The notes beneath the pieces are model-generated. The model did no database searches, was not told the DNA's origin, and worked only from the letters and a program-made list of their open reading frames with translations. A stretch of 23,735 nt of DNA from positions 1-23,735 of the IMG/VR virus record IMGVR_UViG_3300032220_000612. The stretch is one strand, 5' to 3'. This document shows positions 5,640 to 22,863 of the stretch, piece after piece (positions within the stretch are counted from its first letter, which is position 1; every line of letters begins with the position of its first letter). Position numbers and translations under genes: made by a program. The stretch comes from a virus.

Positions 5640-6284
5640 ATGGCATATACAAGAGGTACATCTAGCGATATTATCGTTGGCGCTGCTGCACTGTTTACAG
5701 CAGACAGTACATTAACACCAGGTACAGTGCCTGCGTTTGTAACAACACAGTCTTACAAAGAGACTTTGTCCAACTCAGCAAATATTGCTGGTGGAATTGA
5801 AAACGTAGGATACACAAGTAATGGTATCGAAATCACATTTCAACCTGATTTCGGCGAGGTTCAAGTAGATCAAATTCTTGACGTTGCAAAACTTTACAAG
5901 CAGGGTATGCAAGTAACTCTTGCTACTTCGTTTGCAGAAGCAACACTAGAAAATTTATTATTTTCAATTGCAGGTCAAGCCGACGATCTTTCAGGAACAA
6001 AAAGCACATCAGCAGGTCGCGTTCTTAATCTTGCGTCAGGCGATATTGGAGAATGTCCAGTTGAACGTGCATTAATTGCAGTAGGACCAGGAACTGGAGA
6101 TTGCGAAGATTCAGACGTTATTGAGCGTGTTTATGTTGCATACCGTGCACTTTCTATTGAAAATGTTACAGTGTCAGCAAAGCGTGATACAGCAACAATG
6201 TTTGATGTTACATTCCGTCTTCTACCAGAAGATACTTCTGGATCATACGGAAAAATTATTGACCGTACAATTCAAGGTTCATAA
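5640..6284 (+). CDS. Major tail tube protein
   Basis: This 214-residue protein has the features of a siphovirus major tail protein. The N-terminus starts MAYTRGTSSDIIVGAAALFT. A middle part (GGIENVGYTSNGIEITFQPDF and onward) is followed by strand-rich segments, and the C-terminus reads AKRDTATMFDVTFRLLPED. It sits between the tail terminator and the tail-assembly chaperones, exactly as expected. Subunits would form the tube around the tape measure. The start at 5640 is supported by GAGGTG 5 nt upstream. Arginine codons are mostly CGT, like the capsid gene, pointing to high expression. It is isolated transcriptionally by its own candidate promoter and a strong terminator. An overlapping +1-frame reading (6121-6315) is a shadow. 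Confidence 0.85.
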   Translation: MAYTRGTSSDIIVGAAALFTADSTLTPGTVPAFVTTQSYKETLSNSANIAGGIENVGYTSNGIEITFQPDFGEVQVDQILDVAKLYKQGMQVTLATSFAEATLENLLFSIAGQADDLSGTKSTSAGRVLNLASGDIGECPVERALIAVGPGTGDCEDSDVIERVYVAYRALSIENVTVSAKRDTATMFDVTFRLLPEDTSGSYGKIIDRTIQGS

Positions 6285-6305
6285 AAACTTAATAAAGAAA
6301 GGAAG

Positions 6306-6337
6306 GGCCCACTAGTCAAACTGGTGGGTCTTTTTTT
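6306..6337 (+). terminator. Intrinsic terminator after the tail tube gene
   Basis: A 10-bp stem (6306-6315 with 6321-6330; arms GGCCCACTAG and CTGGTGGGTC, two wobbles) closes a 5-nt loop and runs straight into seven T residues (6331-6337). It is the strongest terminator in the window. Its last T is also the first base of the next promoter box. Confidence 0.92.
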
Positions 6338-6345
6338 GATATAAT
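6337..6345 (+). promoter_or_regulatory. TGATATAAT promoter of a leaderless chaperone gene
   Basis: The exact nonamer TGATATAAT begins within the terminator T-tract and ends 6 nt before the ATG at 6352. Transcription normally begins about 7 nt after a -10 box, so the predicted +1 is the A of the ATG. No Shine-Dalgarno exists between the terminator stem and the start. No -35 is visible; that position is occupied by the hairpin loop and right arm. Confidence 0.75.
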
Positions 6346-6351
6346 AGAATT

Positions 6352-7032
6352 ATGGCAAACACTGTTTATGATATTAAAAACGTATACTCTGTTGATAGTT
6401 TTGAAATAGAAATTAGTCCTTTAAAAATTAAATATTTAAGGGAGTTTATGGACATTTTTCAATTAGTCAAAGACACTAATGGCGATGATGAAGCCACAGA
6501 TGTTTTAATTGAGTGCATTAGAATATGTATGAAACAGTTTCATCCAGAATGGTCTAAAAATAAAAAAGATGTAGAAGATAATTTTGACATGCCAACAATA
6601 TTTGAAATATTGGATGTAGCAGCAGGCATTAAAGTTAATAAAGACTCAAAAGACTCTGTAGCAAAAAACGTCACAGAGGATAAATCGGTTTGGGCAGATC
6701 TAGATTTAGTAAAATTAGAATCAGAAGCATTTTTGCTGGGAATATGGAAAGACTACAATGAACTAGAAACCTCTATATCCATGCCAGAATTAATGGCTAT
6801 TCTTAAATCAAAAAGAGAAGTTGATAACGAAGAAAAAAAATTTCTTGCTGCTATCCAAGGCATTGATTTAGATAAGAATAAGTCGCAAGAAGAAGATCCA
6901 TGGACCAAGTTAAAAAATAAAGTATTTAATGGCGGAAGACCAGACAATGACATTCTTACCTATAAAGGCGACAAAGCCAAGAGGGCAGGGTTTGGGATAG
7001 GTCTGGGTTTGGATTATGAAAAAATTGAATAA
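6352..7032 (+). CDS. Tail assembly chaperone, long form (gpGT-like)
   Basis: The 226-residue protein has an N-terminal domain (about residues 15-97) clearly paralogous to the next gene. Shared landmarks are PLK, LR-FM--F, L-EC--I-M-QF-PE-SK and D-PT---I---A-GIK. A linker leads into an extra C-terminal domain (about 113-165) with AFLLGIWKDYNELETSISMPEL, which resembles the T part of G/GT tail chaperones, and then a basic tail rich in K and G. Such chaperones coat the tape measure before tube assembly. In lambda the long form arises by ribosomal frameshifting; here it is a complete independent gene placed first. Translation appears leaderless. An A8 run at 6833-6840 is discussed under rejected items. 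Confidence 0.8.
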   Translation: MANTVYDIKNVYSVDSFEIEISPLKIKYLREFMDIFQLVKDTNGDDEATDVLIECIRICMKQFHPEWSKNKKDVEDNFDMPTIFEILDVAAGIKVNKDSKDSVAKNVTEDKSVWADLDLVKLESEAFLLGIWKDYNELETSISMPELMAILKSKREVDNEEKKFLAAIQGIDLDKNKSQEEDPWTKLKNKVFNGGRPDNDILTYKGDKAKRAGFGIGLGLDYEKIE

Positions 7033-7048
7033 AAATACGCTGGTTTTG

Positions 7049-7057
7049 TGATATAAT
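7049..7057 (+). promoter_or_regulatory. TGATATAAT promoter of the short chaperone gene
   Basis: The exact nonamer lies in the 55-nt gap between the two chaperone genes. Transcription would start near 7064 and give a ~24-nt leader that contains the GGAAAGGG ribosome-binding site. No properly spaced -35 is visible; the nearest TTGAAT (7025-7030) is 21 nt away. Confidence 0.7.
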
Positions 7058-7087
7058 TAATTCAAATCTACCTAGGAAAGGGAATAT

Positions 7088-7420
7088 ATGCCAACAACAA
7101 AAACAGATGGAACAGAACTTGTATTAATGGATGGAACAAAAATTAATGTTAGACCATTAAAACTATCGTTACTAAGACCATTTATGAAAAAATTTGAGCA
7201 GGTTGCAGCAGTAGCAGAAGATAATGATAAGTCTATGACATTGTTAGTAGAGTGTGCTCAGATTGCAATGGAGCAGTTTAGTCCAGAGTTATCAAAAGAC
7301 ATCGAAAAATTAGAAGAAATTTTAGACCTTCCAACTACTTATAAAATTATTGAAGCAGCATCTGGAATTAAATTGGCAGACGCAAATGCCTTGTTAAATA
7401 CAGTACTCGCCAATAACTAA
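7088..7420 (+). CDS. Tail assembly chaperone, short form (gpG-like)
   Basis: The 110-residue protein matches the N-terminal domain of the preceding gene and lacks the T-like extension. Landmarks include RPLKLSLLRPFMKKFEQV (about 22-39), LLVECAQIAMEQFSPELSK (about 56-74) and LPTTYKIIEAASGIKLAD (about 83-100). It would be the abundant G-type chaperone that works with the long form on the tape measure encoded just downstream. A purine-rich ribosome-binding site (AGGAAAGGG, 7074-7082) stands 5 nt before the ATG. That contrasts with the leaderless start of the long form and may set the G:GT ratio. No terminator separates it from the tape measure gene. Confidence 0.8.
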   Translation: MPTTKTDGTELVLMDGTKINVRPLKLSLLRPFMKKFEQVAAVAEDNDKSMTLLVECAQIAMEQFSPELSKDIEKLEEILDLPTTYKIIEAASGIKLADANALLNTVLANN

Positions 7421-7441: not shown

Positions 7442-10400
7442 ATGGCTGATGTAAACGCTAGAATTGGCGTTCAAATTGATTCGTCAGCCGCTTTAGCAGA
7501 ACTAAAAAGTTTACAAAGGCAACTAGCAGCCTTTCATTCATCTCTATCAAAAGGTAGCGCAGCCTCAATTGCAGCGCAAAAAAATCTATCCACTAATCTT
7601 TTAAATTCAATCAATGCTACGGGCAAATTTACTGCCCAAATGGGACTAGTAAGAAGTTCGACAGAATCATTTACTCACTCACTTGAAAAGAACAAACTTT
7701 CAATGCGTGAGTATTTCCGTTATGCAGGAGGATCTACAAGAACATTTGGAAAATTATTTAAAGAAGAATTTAATACTATTGGCAAGGTAGCAGAAGAACG
7801 TGTTAAGAAGATGCAGACTCAATATATCAAAATGGGTCGTGACGCATCTGGAGCAATTAAAGCAATGTCAATTACTCCAAGAACATTGGACATGAATGAC
7901 TATGCAACCAAAACAGCATTAGCAGCACAAAAACAGGCACTATTTAATCAATTACTAAAACAAGGATCGACAAATCTTTTAAATTTTGGTAAAAATACTC
8001 AGTGGGCTGGTCGTCAATTGATGGTAGGTTTTACAATACCACTTGCATATTTTGGAACTGTAGCATCAAAAACATTTATGGATCTTGAAGCGCAAGCCAT
8101 TAAATTTAAACGTGTTTATGGAGATATTTTTACTACTGCAGATGAAACTAATAAAGCATTAAAAGAAATACAACTTCTTGCTGAAGGTTTTACTAAATAT
8201 GGTGTTGCAGTTACTGAAACTATGGAGATGGCTGCCAAGGCAGCAGCAATGGGTAAAACTGGAGCAGACCTTACAGCACAAGTAGCACAAGCAACTCGAC
8301 TTGCAGTTCTTGGCGGGGTAGAGCAGGGGCAAGCATTAGAAACAACTATATCAGTAACAAACGCTTTTGGAGTAGCAGCAGAAGACCTAGCAAATAAAAT
8401 TAACTTCCTTAACGCAGTAGAAAACCAAACTGTAGTATCCATTGAAGATTTAACTATTGCAATCCCTAAAGCAGGCCCAGTAATAAAACAACTTGGCGGA
8501 TCTGTTGAAGATTTAGCATTTTTCTTAACCGCAATGAAAGAAGGCGGAATTAATGCATCAGAAGGCGCTAACGCACTTAAATCTGGTCTTGCATCATTAA
8601 TTAATCCAAGTAAAAAGGCTAGCGAAATGTTGGCTGGTTTTGGAGTTAATATTAAAGCAATTGTTGAGGGAAACCAAGGAAACATTAGAGAAACAGTCGT
8701 AGATTTTGCTCAGGCATTAGACACGCTAGATCCACTAAATCGCTCCCGTGCAATTGAACAATTATTTGGTAAGTTTCAATTTTCACGTTTATCAACACTA
8801 TTTCAAAACATAACAAAAGAAGGCACTCAGGCTTCCAAAGTATTAGGCCTTGCCTCAGCGTCAATTGAAGAACTTGCAATTTTATCTGAACGAGAATTAA
8901 AGACTGTAGAAAATGCTATAGGAACTGACTTTAGAGAATCTATTGAAAAATTAAAAGTTGCTATTGCACCAATAGGAAAAACATTCCTACAGGCCGTAAC
9001 TCCGATGGTAAAAGTTATAGGTTCATTATTAGATAAATTTGACAATTTAAGTGAAGGAACAAAAAAGTTTATTGTTGTAGCAGGAACTTTAGTTGGAGTA
9101 ATTGGCCCTGTGTTGTTGATGACATTTGGTTTAGTTTTAAATGCTACAGCAAATATCATTAAATTGTTCGGAACACTGAGGGCTGGATTTTTAAAATCTG
9201 GCGCTAGTACCAAAGTTTTGGCTGATCAAACAAATTATTTAAATTCAGAACAGTTGGAAGCGGCAACAGTTGCAGCCTCACTGGACCAGGCTCACAATAG
9301 ACTTACTCAATCATTTACAGTAGAAGCGTTAGCAGTCAAAGCATTAAGACAAGCATATATAGACGCAACAGTAGCAGCAGCAAATTTTGCCAGAACAAAT
9401 CCAGGAATGATGGCTCCAGGATTCAGAAACCCTGGCCCTAAGAAATTTGCATCAGGAACAACTGGTGTTGTTGGTGGAACTTCAGGAAAAGATTCTGTGC
9501 CATCTCTATTGATGCCAGGAGAGGCTGTCATTCCTACAGAAATTGCACAAGATGAAACATATAAACCACTTGTAGAAGCGCTTGTTACTGGAAAAATTAA
9601 AAAATACGGAAAGGGAACTGTTTCTGCAGGGGATGACTATACTCACATAGGCGGGGGAAGATTAACAAATCTAGATGACATAATTGCACAAGGAAGACTA
9701 ACAGAGACTGAGAAACTTCAGGCCCAAGTGTATAGAGATGTATTACAAGCAACAGGAAAATCTCCAGAAGCAAGAGCATACGGTTCTTTAGCACTTTCAT
9801 TTGATCCTACATTAAATAAAGGTTTGGCAACAAGAAGTGGTGTGTCTTTAAGTGATTTTGAAAGAGAATGGACAAGCCGCCCAAATAAGTGGGCACCTTC
9901 AGGATTAACTTCAGCACAAACTCAAGCAATTGATTCAGCAATGATGGATCAAATAAGAAGATCTCCAAGAGTTACTGATGCCGTTGTAGAAAATGCTTTT
10001 AAGAATGTTCCTGAAAACATTAAATCTACCCCAGCATATCAAAAAATGCTAAGTCAATATAATAGAATTGGCGGATATTCTTTAGGAAAAGGATTGGGAT
10101 CTACTCCTAAGACTAGCGCTCAAATTTTAGAGCAAGCAAAACGTTCTGGAATTATTAAAGACTTTAGAGTAGAAGAAAGACAAAGGCAGTCTGGACAAAC
10201 AGCAACAAAAAGTCTTATTGTTACAACTAACGATGGAAAAGAAATAAATCTTGGTCGTGGGTCAAAAGCCAATAGAGTTTATTTCTCAGATAAATCTTTA
10301 GAAAAGGGGTACCAATCTACAACATCTACTCTGGCAGTAGCCAAAGGAGAAGTTTATCAAACTAAAGATGGAAAAGTTGGTGTAGTTGATGGACAAACTG

Positions 10401-13400
10401 GAGAACCAAAACCAAGTGGCAAAACAATAACAGCAAATCCAAGAGATACAAGACTTATGTCTACGTCTAATTTGGCAAGAGTATTTCCATACGGTGTCAA
10501 AGGCCCAAGATTTTCTGGCGCAATAGGTGGAGCAGATGATCCATCCTTAATGACTGGAAAAACATTTTCACAAACTGCAAGTGGTTTATATGTTCCAGAA
10601 TCAAAACTTATTGATGCAATAGAAAAAAATACTGATGCATCTAAAGATAATACACAAAATGATAAACAGTCAAAAAGAGACATGAAATCACAAAAAATGA
10701 ACCGTATGGCTGGCATGACAGGTCCTCTATCTATGGTTGCAGGAACTGCTGCAATGGCTGGTTATGCTACAGGAAATACTGGTTTAGGAAATGTTGCAAT
10801 GGGAGTTTCTGGATTAGCAATGATTGCTCCAATGCTTGCAAATCCATTAGGTGCAGCAGCAGCAGGATTAACAGCATTAGCAGCATCTGTTGTTCTTATT
10901 AGAAGGGCATTTGATAAAGCACAAGATAGTGCTATTGAAATGTCTGAAGCAATGGGAAGTGGAAATAAAGCAATACAGGATCTTGCAATATTTTCAAATA
11001 AAGTAAGTGCTGGAGAAATTATGAATAGAAGAAGAGGAAATCTTCTTAATCCTTTTGCAGTGCAAACTGGAAAAACAACATTTGGTGAAAATTTTGTTAA
11101 ATCTGAAACAGGAAAATCTATGGTATCTGGTGTTTCTGAATCTATTAAAACTGGGGGAAGGGAATCCGCACAGAGTCAATTATTAAATCAATTAGCAACC
11201 GGAATTGCTGCAGGAGCAATTAATCCAGCACAAGCCAGAAGTATTGCTGCTAACATAGCCTCAGAAATAGGAGACTACTCATTCGGAATTAGTGTTAATG
11301 CAAAACTTATAAACTTGATTGGTGTTAATGGGGAAAATTTAATAAAAGATCCTTTAAAAGTAAGAGTAGCACTAATGGAGGAATCAAGTCAAGGTTTGGC
11401 AAAACAGTCAAAACTTTTATCATCCACTGGCGCAGGGGCAATGACAAAAACACAAACAAAGGTTGGTGCAATAGGTTTCGGCGCAGGAGGTGCCGTTGCT
11501 GGCGGAATGCTAGGTGCTACCGCTGGATCAGTTGTTCCAGTTGTTGGAACAGCAATCGGAGCCGCTATTGGCGCAGCAATTGGCGCAGGAGCGCTATGGT
11601 ATAGTCAAAAAGGACAACAGGAAAAACTTGGTAGGGCATCTGGAGCAAATGTTGCTATGCAAAAAATGGCCTTAGAACAAAGCCAACAGATGCAAGATTC
11701 TTTAAGACTTGAGTATGAACAAAGAATTGCTAATGCTAAGGCTGCTGGAGACACTGCAAAAGCAATCCAGTTACAAAATGAATATCAACGAGCAAATTCT
11801 ACATTGCTTGAGCAAAATGGAAAATTAGTTACAGATATACAAAATACATATAAAAATTCATCTGGAGCAGTTCGTGGAGCACTTGAAACTGGATTAGACA
11901 AACAGATTACAAGTAAATATAAAGATACTGCTATGGCAGATATAGCACCACTTGCTACAGATTTATTAAGTGGCTCGTCTTTATCTAAAGAGGCACAATT
12001 TACTATAAAAATGCAATTAGCCTCTGGTCAAATGGACCCAATGCAAATTGTTAATTTGATAGAAACATTTGGGAAAGATTCAGAAACTTTAACCAAAGTT
12101 ATGAATATTGTTACAAAATTTGGTGGTGCTTTTGCTAATCAAACAATGTCAGTTATTAACCTATTTCAAGATAAAAATGGAAATCCAATTAAAGAGCAAC
12201 AGACAAAATTTATTGCAGACATTAGCAATAAGACTTCAGCAGAAGCAGAAAAATATTTAAAACTTTTTGCAGACATAAGTAAAGTTGGAAATGTTATGGA
12301 TATTGAAGTTGCATTAACATATTACAGTAATAATCCAATTGAAGCAGCAAGAATACAATCAATAATAGATAATATTAATGAGCAAAAAGGAAAAATTGAT
12401 TTAGACATTGCAACAAAAATACTAGGTGCAAAAGAAATGGAGGCCTTAAGAAAAGATCAAGAATATTTTAGTAAACTTCCAGCAGAACAACAAAAGGTAT
12501 ATTTGCAAACACTTACAACAATGGCAAATATTAAAGGAAATAATGCAGAAGCAATTCAAAATTGGCTAAAACAAAATCCAGGAAAAACTGAAGCAGATTA
12601 TTATGTTGAGTCTGCACAAAAAGTAACAAAAATTAGTCAAGATAATACAATACCAAAAGGCAATGGGTCAACATCAGAAGGAAATAGAGATACAATCCTT
12701 GATTCAATTTTAACTGACTTAAAGCGCACAAGGGATTCAAGAATTAATGCCGAGGGTGGAGACGCAGAACTTATGCGTATTCTTGGAGGAAATAAAGATT
12801 TAACAATATTTAAAGGATTAAATCAACAACTATCTGCAATTACTGGAAACACAGATTTTATTGATTGGGTAGGGGGAATAGAAAAGGCTATTCAAGGTAA
12901 ATTAATTAAAGTGAGCAATGATGGAGCAGTAGCATTAACAAATCTTGGAAAGGCAGCACAAAAAGCATATGACGAAAAAACAATTGGAATATTCCAAGCA
13001 AGACAGATTGGTTTAACAAAAACTGCTAATGATCAAAAACAAGCATTTATAAAATTAACAAAGGCAGGAATAGATAATGCAACGGCTTTAGAAATGGTTG
13101 CAGATGCAAACCTAGCAGCAGCAATCGCATCAAAGTCAGCAGGAAAAGATGCTATAAAAGCAGCAGAAGATTTTAAGAAAGCCCAAAAAATTAGTCAAGA
13201 ATCTTTAAGGTTTATTAATCCTATTCAATCATTTCGTGATGATATGTCCAAGGTTTCTGAAATGCTAGACGTTCAAGAAAGTCAGGCTCGTGCTAGATAT
13301 GAACCAGAAATTAAAAGAATTAACGGGCTAATTAAAGCGAACGAGGATGCAATAGATGCAAAAAGAAGATACATTGAAATAGAATATGACAGACCAATTC

Positions 13401-14638
13401 AGGCTCTTCAAGATCAAACTAAAAAATTAAATCACGATTTATCTTTAATAGAAAAAAGTGCAGAGTTAATAACTAAAAAATATGAAGAGCAAAGAGAGGC
13501 TCTTCAGAAAGTTTATGAGTTAAACAATAGACTTGTCCAACAAGAAAAATCCAAGATATCTCTTGCCGATGCACTATCTAGTGGAGACATATCTCAAGCA
13601 GCACAAATAGCGCAAGACATAAGATCGCAGAATCAGCAATACGCTCAAGAGGATAGTTTAAATGCTTTACAAGTTGCTCAAGAAAATCAAATCGCAGCCT
13701 TAAGATCTGCTTCTGGATTAAGCAGGGTCCAAATTGAAGAAAAAATGTATAACATAAGTTTACAAATATATGCTATTGAAGAACAGCAACAAATTAAAAT
13801 TAATGAAATTATTGCATTAGAGGATCAAAACTATCAATTAAAAGTAAATCAATTGTCTGTATTGGAGTCATCCTTAAAGAAAGAAATAGATGCCATTGAT
13901 GCGCAAAGACAAAGGTTTGCTCAGGCAGAGTTGGCAATACGTGCTGCTGAAGTTCAAACCGATTCATACACAGAAGCACTAAAAAGAGCAGAACAAGTTT
14001 TAATAAGAATGGTAGCCCTGGCAGCAAAACTCGCAGGGGGTGGAACCTTAGATGATGTTGAAGATACTGTTAGAGGTGGAACGCCTACAGGTCTTGATAG
14101 TACACAAAAAGGAATTGCCTCAAGATTAACTTCTGGAATTCAAAATCTTGTTAAGCAGGGTAATTACAATGCAGCAGAATCTGCAACAGTAAAAATGATG
14201 AAAGAAATTGGAGCAGTAAAGGCCATCGCTTCTACCGATGCTGTTTCTTTAAGAAAACAGGCGCTAGGCTATTTAAGTAAGGGAGGCATGGTTCCTCAAT
14301 ATTTTGCAAAAGGTGGTTTGTCTCGTGGATCAGATACCGTTCCCGCAATGCTTACTCCAGGAGAATATGTTATGAGTAAGTCTGCAACTCAAAGGTTTGG
14401 ACCATTATTAAAACAAATGAATGAATCAAGATATCCACAAAATGCACTATCAGGATATGATTCTAGAATGATACAGGCTAATAGAAATGAAGTCACAAAC
14501 AATTCCAATTCAGTGTATAATTATAGTTTAAATATTGATGCAAGTGGTGGATCAATGAATCCAAATGATATTGCTAGGGTTGTTCTTACGCAAATTAAAA
14601 ACATGGAATCACAAAGAATTAGGGGGAATAGATACTGA
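7442..14638 (+). CDS. Tape measure protein, 2398 residues
   Basis: This is the longest gene and lies after the chaperones. Residues ~210-410 carry a classic phage tape-measure core (FMDLEAQAIKFKRVYGDIF, MEMAAKAAAMGKTGADL, FLTAMKEGGINASEGANALK). Hydrophobic segments lie at about 543-578, 1091-1153 and 1341-1386, the last two rich in Gly/Ala. A VPSLLMPGE motif occurs at about 686-694 and again as VPAMLTPGE near 2300-2308 at the C-terminus. A globular, poorly recognised stretch covers about 705-1090 and a long coiled coil about 1929-2190. At roughly 0.15 nm per residue the tail could reach about 360 nm if the whole protein were extended. GGGGTG (7429-7434) stands 7 nt before ATG 7442; the nearby ATG at 7438 opens only three codons. 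Confidence 0.93.
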   Translation: MADVNARIGVQIDSSAALAELKSLQRQLAAFHSSLSKGSAASIAAQKNLSTNLLNSINATGKFTAQMGLVRSSTESFTHSLEKNKLSMREYFRYAGGSTRTFGKLFKEEFNTIGKVAEERVKKMQTQYIKMGRDASGAIKAMSITPRTLDMNDYATKTALAAQKQALFNQLLKQGSTNLLNFGKNTQWAGRQLMVGFTIPLAYFGTVASKTFMDLEAQAIKFKRVYGDIFTTADETNKALKEIQLLAEGFTKYGVAVTETMEMAAKAAAMGKTGADLTAQVAQATRLAVLGGVEQGQALETTISVTNAFGVAAEDLANKINFLNAVENQTVVSIEDLTIAIPKAGPVIKQLGGSVEDLAFFLTAMKEGGINASEGANALKSGLASLINPSKKASEMLAGFGVNIKAIVEGNQGNIRETVVDFAQALDTLDPLNRSRAIEQLFGKFQFSRLSTLFQNITKEGTQASKVLGLASASIEELAILSERELKTVENAIGTDFRESIEKLKVAIAPIGKTFLQAVTPMVKVIGSLLDKFDNLSEGTKKFIVVAGTLVGVIGPVLLMTFGLVLNATANIIKLFGTLRAGFLKSGASTKVLADQTNYLNSEQLEAATVAASLDQAHNRLTQSFTVEALAVKALRQAYIDATVAAANFARTNPGMMAPGFRNPGPKKFASGTTGVVGGTSGKDSVPSLLMPGEAVIPTEIAQDETYKPLVEALVTGKIKKYGKGTVSAGDDYTHIGGGRLTNLDDIIAQGRLTETEKLQAQVYRDVLQATGKSPEARAYGSLALSFDPTLNKGLATRSGVSLSDFEREWTSRPNKWAPSGLTSAQTQAIDSAMMDQIRRSPRVTDAVVENAFKNVPENIKSTPAYQKMLSQYNRIGGYSLGKGLGSTPKTSAQILEQAKRSGIIKDFRVEERQRQSGQTATKSLIVTTNDGKEINLGRGSKANRVYFSDKSLEKGYQSTTSTLAVAKGEVYQTKDGKVGVVDGQTGEPKPSGKTITANPRDTRLMSTSNLARVFPYGVKGPRFSGAIGGADDPSLMTGKTFSQTASGLYVPESKLIDAIEKNTDASKDNTQNDKQSKRDMKSQKMNRMAGMTGPLSMVAGTAAMAGYATGNTGLGNVAMGVSGLAMIAPMLANPLGAAAAGLTALAASVVLIRRAFDKAQDSAIEMSEAMGSGNKAIQDLAIFSNKVSAGEIMNRRRGNLLNPFAVQTGKTTFGENFVKSETGKSMVSGVSESIKTGGRESAQSQLLNQLATGIAAGAINPAQARSIAANIASEIGDYSFGISVNAKLINLIGVNGENLIKDPLKVRVALMEESSQGLAKQSKLLSSTGAGAMTKTQTKVGAIGFGAGGAVAGGMLGATAGSVVPVVGTAIGAAIGAAIGAGALWYSQKGQQEKLGRASGANVAMQKMALEQSQQMQDSLRLEYEQRIANAKAAGDTAKAIQLQNEYQRANSTLLEQNGKLVTDIQNTYKNSSGAVRGALETGLDKQITSKYKDTAMADIAPLATDLLSGSSLSKEAQFTIKMQLASGQMDPMQIVNLIETFGKDSETLTKVMNIVTKFGGAFANQTMSVINLFQDKNGNPIKEQQTKFIADISNKTSAEAEKYLKLFADISKVGNVMDIEVALTYYSNNPIEAARIQSIIDNINEQKGKIDLDIATKILGAKEMEALRKDQEYFSKLPAEQQKVYLQTLTTMANIKGNNAEAIQNWLKQNPGKTEADYYVESAQKVTKISQDNTIPKGNGSTSEGNRDTILDSILTDLKRTRDSRINAEGGDAELMRILGGNKDLTIFKGLNQQLSAITGNTDFIDWVGGIEKAIQGKLIKVSNDGAVALTNLGKAAQKAYDEKTIGIFQARQIGLTKTANDQKQAFIKLTKAGIDNATALEMVADANLAAAIASKSAGKDAIKAAEDFKKAQKISQESLRFINPIQSFRDDMSKVSEMLDVQESQARARYEPEIKRINGLIKANEDAIDAKRRYIEIEYDRPIQALQDQTKKLNHDLSLIEKSAELITKKYEEQREALQKVYELNNRLVQQEKSKISLADALSSGDISQAAQIAQDIRSQNQQYAQEDSLNALQVAQENQIAALRSASGLSRVQIEEKMYNISLQIYAIEEQQQIKINEIIALEDQNYQLKVNQLSVLESSLKKEIDAIDAQRQRFAQAELAIRAAEVQTDSYTEALKRAEQVLIRMVALAAKLAGGGTLDDVEDTVRGGTPTGLDSTQKGIASRLTSGIQNLVKQGNYNAAESATVKMMKEIGAVKAIASTDAVSLRKQALGYLSKGGMVPQYFAKGGLSRGSDTVPAMLTPGEYVMSKSATQRFGPLLKQMNESRYPQNALSGYDSRMIQANRNEVTNNSNSVYNYSLNIDASGGSMNPNDIARVVLTQIKNMESQRIRGNRY

Positions 14639-21737: not shown

Positions 21738-22181
21738 ATGGCAAAAATACCACTACCAGAAAGAGGGCAACCTTTAGATTTAACATATATCAATCAATTG
21801 GCTAATGCGGTCAATGGATTGTATAATCAGGTATCATCTAGCACAGGTAATTACGCTAAAATAAATATTACAAACAACGACGTAGTTAACGTTAAGACCT
21901 CGGAAATGGGAGTTGTAGCAGCCCGTGTAGAAATATATAATAACGCAACAGTAATCGTTGCTCAAGAAAAAGAGTTTTTTTATGACTTCAGTAACAATTT
22001 TAAATATGCCCCAATTGTTACCGCTACGCCAGTAAACATTGGAAACACATTAGCAGGTAAAAATGTGTCTGTAATTTTAAAAAATGTAACTACTTCTAGA
22101 GTAGAAGGGGTTGTAAGGTTTGGAAGTGCTGGAGATTTATCTTTGCACGTAAATTTAATTGCAATTGGCGTCCCTACTTAA
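21738..22181 (+). CDS. Fibre/adhesin with H-type lectin-like C-terminus
   Basis: The 147-residue protein has an N-terminal helix (LTYINQLANAVNGLYNQV, about 15-32) that could trimerise. The C-terminal beta region (about 75-147) has the order of an H-type lectin or fibre tip domain: FSNNFKYAPIVTATPV, then VILKNVTTSRVEGVVRF, then LSLHVNLIAIGVP. In other phages this kind of fold closes receptor-binding fibres. It has its own promoter and AAAGGAG (21727-21733), so it may be made at higher levels than its neighbours. The lectin assignment is by pattern only; a head fibre or decoration protein is an alternative. Confidence 0.6.
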   Translation: MAKIPLPERGQPLDLTYINQLANAVNGLYNQVSSSTGNYAKINITNNDVVNVKTSEMGVVAARVEIYNNATVIVAQEKEFFYDFSNNFKYAPIVTATPVNIGNTLAGKNVSVILKNVTTSRVEGVVRFGSAGDLSLHVNLIAIGVPT

Positions 22182-22372
22182 TGATAAAATGTTCAAGATG
22201 TAAGTCTAGGATGTTCTTAGACAGGCAATACAGCAGGGAAGATCATCTGGAATCATTTTGTTTGTCTTGTGGAAATAGAAAATTTTATAATCCGCCATCA
22301 GCATCAAGCGAGGGGAAATGGCTACTTCAAAAGGAAATATTGAAAGCGAAGAATACAATCAGTCGCCTGTAA
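22181..22372 (+). CDS. Small zinc-ribbon protein
   Basis: The 63-residue protein has two CxxC pairs (Cys4/Cys7 in CSRC and Cys27/Cys30 in CLSC), separated by a basic, hydrophilic loop; together they would bind one zinc ion. It is small and basic, so a nucleic-acid or protein-binding role is plausible, but no specific family is recognised. It starts in a TAATG overlap with the previous gene and has no own ribosome-binding site, suggesting coupling. Its last 55 nt overlap the next gene in another frame. Confidence 0.7.
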   Translation: MIKCSRCKSRMFLDRQYSREDHLESFCLSCGNRKFYNPPSASSEGKWLLQKEILKAKNTISRL

Positions 22373-22863
22373 TAAAAGGCAGCGAGGCTGTTTGGTTTTT
22401 GAATAATGATTTAGTAAGAATACATCATTATAATAGGTCAAACGGAACTGTTGCATTGTATAATATTATTAAAAATAAAATTGAGTTGTGTTTTATTTTA
22501 GATTTTAAAAAAAATAGAGAGAAAGCATATACTATAACTGAGACCGCAAAAATTATTAATAGGCATAGAAAGTATATGCCAAGTTTAATAAAACGAGGAG
22601 TCATTCCTCCACCAATAGGCTGTTCTGAAAATGGTAAAAGAGGTTTTCAAATAAGAGCGTACTATTCTGAAAATACAGTAAAAGAGATTCGTGATATACT
22701 GGCAAGTATACATATTGGACAACCAAGAAAAGATGGTTTAATAACAAATAATATGACGCCTACAAAACAAGAATTGACTAGAAAGTTGGGAGATGGTATA
22801 CTTACTTATACAAAAACTAAAGATGGAAGATTTATTCCAGTCTGGAATGAATCAATAAGATAA
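22318..22863 (+). CDS. Putative HTH DNA-binding protein (MerR/excisionase-like)
   Basis: The 181-residue protein contains a helix-turn-helix-like segment at about residues 70-130. YTITETAKIINRHRKYMPSL is followed by IKRGVIPPP, a wing-like RGFQIRAYY, and SENTVKEIRDILA, as in winged MerR/HTH_17 proteins that read 'adaptor' DNA sites. The N-terminal part (about 20-65) is a small beta-rich region (AVWFLNNDLVRIHHYNR). It may regulate phage transcription; the target is unknown. GAGGGG precedes ATG 22318 by only 2 nt, so the start is not certain, but no better in-frame start is visible before the domain. Confidence 0.6.
   Translation: MATSKGNIESEEYNQSPVIKGSEAVWFLNNDLVRIHHYNRSNGTVALYNIIKNKIELCFILDFKKNREKAYTITETAKIINRHRKYMPSLIKRGVIPPPIGCSENGKRGFQIRAYYSENTVKEIRDILASIHIGQPRKDGLITNNMTPTKQELTRKLGDGILTYTKTKDGRFIPVWNESIR

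Follow-up and report, generated by a model that had tools for sequence, protein, structure and literature searches.

The tail assembly chaperone (TAC) locus of the studied virus very likely provides its two isoforms from two paralogous genes and not from one gene with a programmed −1 frameshift. We analyzed a whole virus record of 23.7 kb, below called the window, whose tail module is siphovirus-like and homologous to that of the Stanwilliamsviridae. The long, GT-like and the short, G-like gene share an N-terminal domain (N), and a T-like domain (T) is present in the long protein only (Table 1).

Table 1. Features of the tail chaperone locus in the window
Feature	Position	Strand	Remarks
Major tail protein gene, Ig-domain type	5640..6284	+	214 aa; 5′ of both chaperone genes
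Intrinsic terminator-like hairpin and T run	6301..6336	+	separates the long gene from that of the major tail protein
Extended −10 box TGATATAAT of the long gene	6337..6345	+	ends 6 nt 5′ of ATG; no Shine–Dalgarno sequence
Long chaperone gene, GT-like	6352..7032	+	226 aa; one complete frame; stands first
Extended −10 box TGATATAAT of the short gene	7049..7057	+	ends 30 nt 5′ of ATG
Shine–Dalgarno-like sequence AGGAAAGGG of the short gene	7073..7082	+	
Short chaperone gene, G-like	7088..7420	+	110 aa; N domain only
Tape measure protein gene	7442..14638	+	2398 aa; PF10145 PhageMin_Tail, E 8e-28

Gene layout and the two putative chaperones

Both chaperone ORFs lie between the genes of the major tail protein and the tape measure protein, the position typical of TAC genes. 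The product of the former matched phrog_885 ‘major tail protein’ (E 3e-4) and, more strongly, phrog_2175 ‘protein with Ig domain’ (E 2e-34); its counterparts in phages Faust and Wakanda are annotated as ‘protein with Ig domain / major tail protein’. The tape measure protein is the expected client of the chaperones. Elsewhere in the window, a small Cys-rich, zinc-ribbon-like ORF with a CxxC...CxxC pattern (22181-22372) is followed by a second one, which overlaps it and weakly matches HTH_17 (22318-22863, E 0.024).

We infer a tail assembly chaperone function of both proteins from their position, the annotation of relatives, weak PHROG matches, and a non-significant structural match to the HK97 chaperone. 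Homologues in related phages are annotated as tail assembly chaperone; 16 of 52 members of the N family gave weak matches to phrog_1932 ‘tail assembly chaperone’, and weak matches of some family members covered the TAC families phrog_1932, phrog_1442, and phrog_330. The HK97 chaperone 2ob9 was the third-ranked PDB match of the short protein model, with a TM score of 0.43 but an E value of 2.5 and a probability of 0.18; the alignment was full-length (103 columns versus 104 residues) though non-significant. Foldseek with the full-length long model found nothing. No significant Pfam family and no match among solved structures searched by sequence were obtained for either protein, and no relatives of the short protein were found in the bacterial and archaeal genomes searched.

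The preliminary description of this DNA had stated that the two adjacent genes share a domain and that a T-like extension is carried by the first alone, which proved correct. The long and short proteins were 38% identical over 96 aa (BLASTP, E 2e-21), and comparison of their family profiles gave a probability of 99.9% over 99 columns (E 3e-37). The common N domain comprises approximately 97 N-terminal residues and matched phrog_10504 in both proteins. The C-terminal part of the long protein matched a separate family, phrog_10474, to which the short protein had no match. In the long protein, the N domain (residues ~1-97) and the T-like domain (~112-226) are fused in frame, and the latter has as its homologue in Streptomyces phages the ORF in the −1 frame. 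A common N domain with a C-terminal extension on the long form only is the composition of a two-isoform system; that the long form is complete and comes first, as had also been described, is evident from Table 1.

The likeness of the two N domains extends to their predicted structures, in which the same elements follow in the same order: E9-12, E18-21, H26-41, H45/46-63/64, H65/66-68/69, H71/72-77/78, and H80/81-91/92. Mean pLDDT was 65.6 for the long model and 74 for the short one, the latter being predicted as a beta-hairpin plus helices. Both genes are under purifying selection, with dN/dS values well below 1 (0.05-0.16 for the long gene and 0.03-0.07 for the short gene).

Two states of the locus and its expression signals

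We scanned 253 related loci with profiles of both domains, and 244 of them were classifiable. State A, the type of the window, with N and T fused in one frame and followed by a separate short N paralogue, was found in 196 loci (128 distinct pairs). This type makes up a sizable group of freshwater phages, and no cultured member of it is known to us. State B, with a single N gene and T in the −1 frame, was found in 48 loci (35 distinct), including all Stanwilliamsviridae phages of Streptomyces examined and many freshwater relatives. A mixed form did not occur among the 244 classifiable loci, and every complete state-A locus seen kept both copies. Among the few loci outside both states, some are truncated by contig ends, L138 probably has a sequence indel, L135 and L136 have a wider gap, and one belongs to a Rhodococcus phage, whose chaperone is annotated as joined and frameshifted. 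In L135 and L136, the gap between the long and short genes is about 130 nt above that of most relatives (172 nt in L135). Counted over whole records, the N domain was present once in 7/7 frameshift records and twice in 5/5 duplicated records; in 130 records of cultured phages, the matches fell in one place per record. Several Streptomyces phage records (L163, L165, and L169) have the T part entered as a small gene of its own rather than joined to N as a frameshift product, and that of Faust is annotated as only 60 nt (L165:3591-3650). The database entries for these phages thus misrepresent the long chaperone.

An in-frame slippery heptamer was found in all 35 distinct state-B loci (CCCAAAC in 18, CCCAAAT in 12, and CCCGGAA in 5), whereas neither CCCAAAN nor CCCGGAA was present at the junction of the long gene or in the tail of the short gene in any of the 128 distinct state-A pairs. 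The window lacks the lambda-type frameshift arrangement, its T part being in frame with N. Most short genes no longer have the proline codon of the heptamer (GIKLADAN in the window versus KLNDPN in frameshift relatives). A different sequence, T TTA AAT/C, occurs close to the end of some short genes; it is not universal, is missing from the window, has no T frame behind it, and was rejected as a slippery site. A conserved frameshift joining either gene to another frame, which would have contradicted the preliminary description, was looked for in the relatives and not found. Its proposal that duplication has replaced recoding agrees with the two states: relatives have the −1 frame and the heptamer, and in the group of the window the heptamer is lost from both copies, T is fused, and a second N is gained.

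The terminator-like hairpin upstream of the long gene, GGGCCCACTAGTC-AAA-CTGGTGGGTC followed by a T-run, has a folding energy of −22 kcal/mol (z −5.6). All dereplicated relatives (75/75) have a comparable hairpin at this place, and none of the 75 has a terminator between the long and short genes. Each gene has a box of its own in the window, as had been noted before. The window holds five perfect boxes versus 2.3 expected, a number that is not impressive alone; the position and conservation of the boxes are far beyond chance. An extended −10 box ending 5-10 nt before the ATG of the long gene was found in 72/75 dereplicated relatives (0.78 loci in shuffles) and in 71/75 loci it ends 6-9 nt before the ATG. 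A perfect TGNTATAAT stands 23-36 nt before the start of the short gene in 75/75 dereplicated loci (0.07 loci in shuffles). A scan of the region with the sigma-70 consensus performed no better than on shuffles and missed the hairpin at 6301; conserved-position tests were therefore used instead.

The conserved difference between the two starts, leaderless in the one and Shine–Dalgarno in the other, was also confirmed: an SD-like motif precedes 2/75 long genes versus 75/75 short genes. The box of the long gene is perfect in 8/75 relatives and imperfect in 67/75, so the perfect box of the window is atypical. These features suggest that the long gene has a leaderless mRNA, as predicted, from a usually weaker promoter. 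The claim that promoter strength sets the isoform ratio found partial support. Across the relatives, the long gene mostly has the less perfect of the two putative promoters (a perfect box in 8/75 versus 75/75), but in the window both boxes are identical and perfect; box strength alone therefore cannot set the ratio there, and any bias would have to come from the SD/leaderless difference and the arrangement of transcripts. Since a terminator precedes the long gene and none separates the two genes, the short gene should be served by both promoters and the long gene only by its own, which would bias output toward the short form, in the direction of the lambda ratio.

A hairpin and an AGGAGG-type SD precede the frameshift G gene, and the freshwater relatives have a TGNTATAAT box as well. 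This leader corresponds to that of the short gene in the duplicated type, the long gene lying between its hairpin and its promoter.

Origin of the two-gene locus and alternative explanations

The arrangement may be derived as follows. The ancestor would have had a G/T locus with T in the −1 frame and a slippery CCCAAAN close to where G ends. Tandem duplication of this locus would have taken place in a lineage of freshwater actinophages. In the upstream copy, T would have been fused in frame, yielding the long, GT-like gene; the downstream copy would have kept the promoter, the Shine–Dalgarno sequence, and the tail of G and lost T and the slippery site, yielding the short, G-like gene. Probably, initiation specific to each gene determines the ratio of isoforms: with upstream transcripts shut off by the terminator, the long gene would depend on a −10 box that is usually imperfect and on a leaderless start, and the short gene would have its own perfect extended −10 box and SD and should also receive the transcript of the long gene. 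By analogy with lambda, coating of the tape measure protein would fall to the short protein, and the long protein, the rarer of the two, would recruit tail-tube subunits via its T domain.

The N-domain tree was built from a set of 48 rows used in place of all 127 N domains. The long and the short N domains were each monophyletic, lying on one side of a branch (support 100/99 and 99/93), and the short family was nested within the freshwater frameshift G sequences. Long, short, and freshwater frameshift G sequences together were separated from the other frameshift sequences with support of 98/92. In the free tree, the divergent long N domain fell outside the group of short and freshwater frameshift G sequences, on a long branch, as might be expected if the long gene had been gained from another phage by recombination instead of arising by tandem duplication within the lineage. 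We consider such a gain unlikely: a tree with long and short sequences as a single clade was equally good (p-AU 0.52, with a likelihood slightly above that of the free tree), the T domain of the long gene was nested within freshwater frameshift T (support 0.989), and the two genes stand in tandem in all loci. The trees fit one tandem duplication within a frameshift-using lineage. Later module exchange or recombination, or a second event, is possible, because the marker trees of the major tail protein and the tape measure protein show two changes of state each. The record L064 combines the duplicated chaperone state with a tape measure protein that groups with those of the frameshift phages L185/L190/L194, suggesting recombination inside the tail module.

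The long branch of the long N domain also means that this domain may have diverged in function. Together with the modest identity of the N domains, it could indicate that the long protein covers the chaperone tasks of both isoforms by itself, the short paralogue having been neofunctionalised, with no division into G and GT. This is improbable, since it is the short gene, not the long one, that keeps the ancestral G leader, the C-tail length, and the tree position; both copies are retained throughout the complete loci, and loss of the slippery site from both is what a split of products predicts. Still less probable is recoding in the reverse direction, in which a −1 slip at A AAA AAC followed by an early stop would yield a truncated G from the long ORF, as in dnaX of Escherichia coli. 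The heptamer is indeed in frame at codon 104 of the long ORF of the window, exactly at the N/T junction, and the −1 frame stops within a few codons. However, A AAA AAN was found at codons 95-112 in only 17 of the 128 distinct long genes, A-runs occur at many other positions of these AT-rich genes, and a dedicated short gene is present. Thus, the heptamer at codon 104 looks like a chance occurrence in AT-rich DNA.

The host is probably an actinobacterium, judging from the Streptomyces and Rhodococcus relatives and from WhiB in related records. WhiB was encoded in 8/12 related records and in 1/14 control genomes (Corynebacterium), and was not present in the 65.7 kb record matching the window (L003/G001). 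A TerL family search, made for context, gave no match in six records.

Taken as a whole, the two-gene reading of the locus probably reflects an independent replacement, of single origin, of chaperone recoding by tandem duplication in actinophages, by which control of the ratio would have moved from slippage to transcription and initiation, with sister lineages of the same tail architecture in both states. The locus is a natural case of recoding loss. Recoding and the two-gene solution both occur in close relatives whose major tail and tape measure proteins are homologous, so that it becomes possible to ask directly whether the frameshift serves the ratio as such, co-translational coupling, or a compact genome. 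Annotation rules that demand a frameshift will mis-call two-gene loci.

Comparison with known chaperone systems

In phage lambda, gpG and gpGT are produced by a programmed −1 frameshift at a short-to-long ratio of about 30:1 (PMC5009743), and the frameshift in tail chaperones is described as widely conserved (Xu 2004, as cited). The lambda locus resembles that of the window in having isoforms with a common N domain, encoded between the major tail protein and the tape measure protein. It differs in that the long form arises by frameshifting; no sequence homology of gpG/gpGT to the proteins of the window was detected.

The nearest cultured relatives are the Stanwilliamsviridae (Streptomyces phages EGole, Coruscant, Faust, and others). 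They share with the window the order of major tail protein, chaperone, and tape measure protein, as well as homologous N and T domains, and the leader of their G gene has the hairpin, extended −10 box, and SD seen at the short gene. They differ in having one N gene, with T in the −1 frame after a slippery CCCAAAT or CCCGGAA.

In the literature on duplicated tail chaperones, we found the T4-like case only. Some T4-like phages are cited as having a separate short gene and a long fusion gene, with no frameshift (Vladimirov, Gautam and Davidson 2022, Virology 566:9, as cited in PMC10885494). In our comparison, T4 gp26 and gp51 were alike (E 2e-6); both matched phrog_150 and gp51 alone matched phrog_634, which supports gp26/gp51 as a short/long pair. 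We take them to be the pair meant in the 2022 paper. The T4-like pair has the same two-gene organization as the window, a short gene plus a long fusion of the short part with a downstream part. At the same time, it belongs to contractile-tailed coliphages, T4 gp26 and gp51 are encoded on opposite strands whereas the genes of the window are in tandem, and no sequence homology between the two systems was detected. Unlike the T4-like pair, the type found in the window has immediate relatives that still carry the frameshift site. The two-gene principle was thus already known from T4-like phages; new here are the apparently independent origin and the occurrence of sister lineages in both states.
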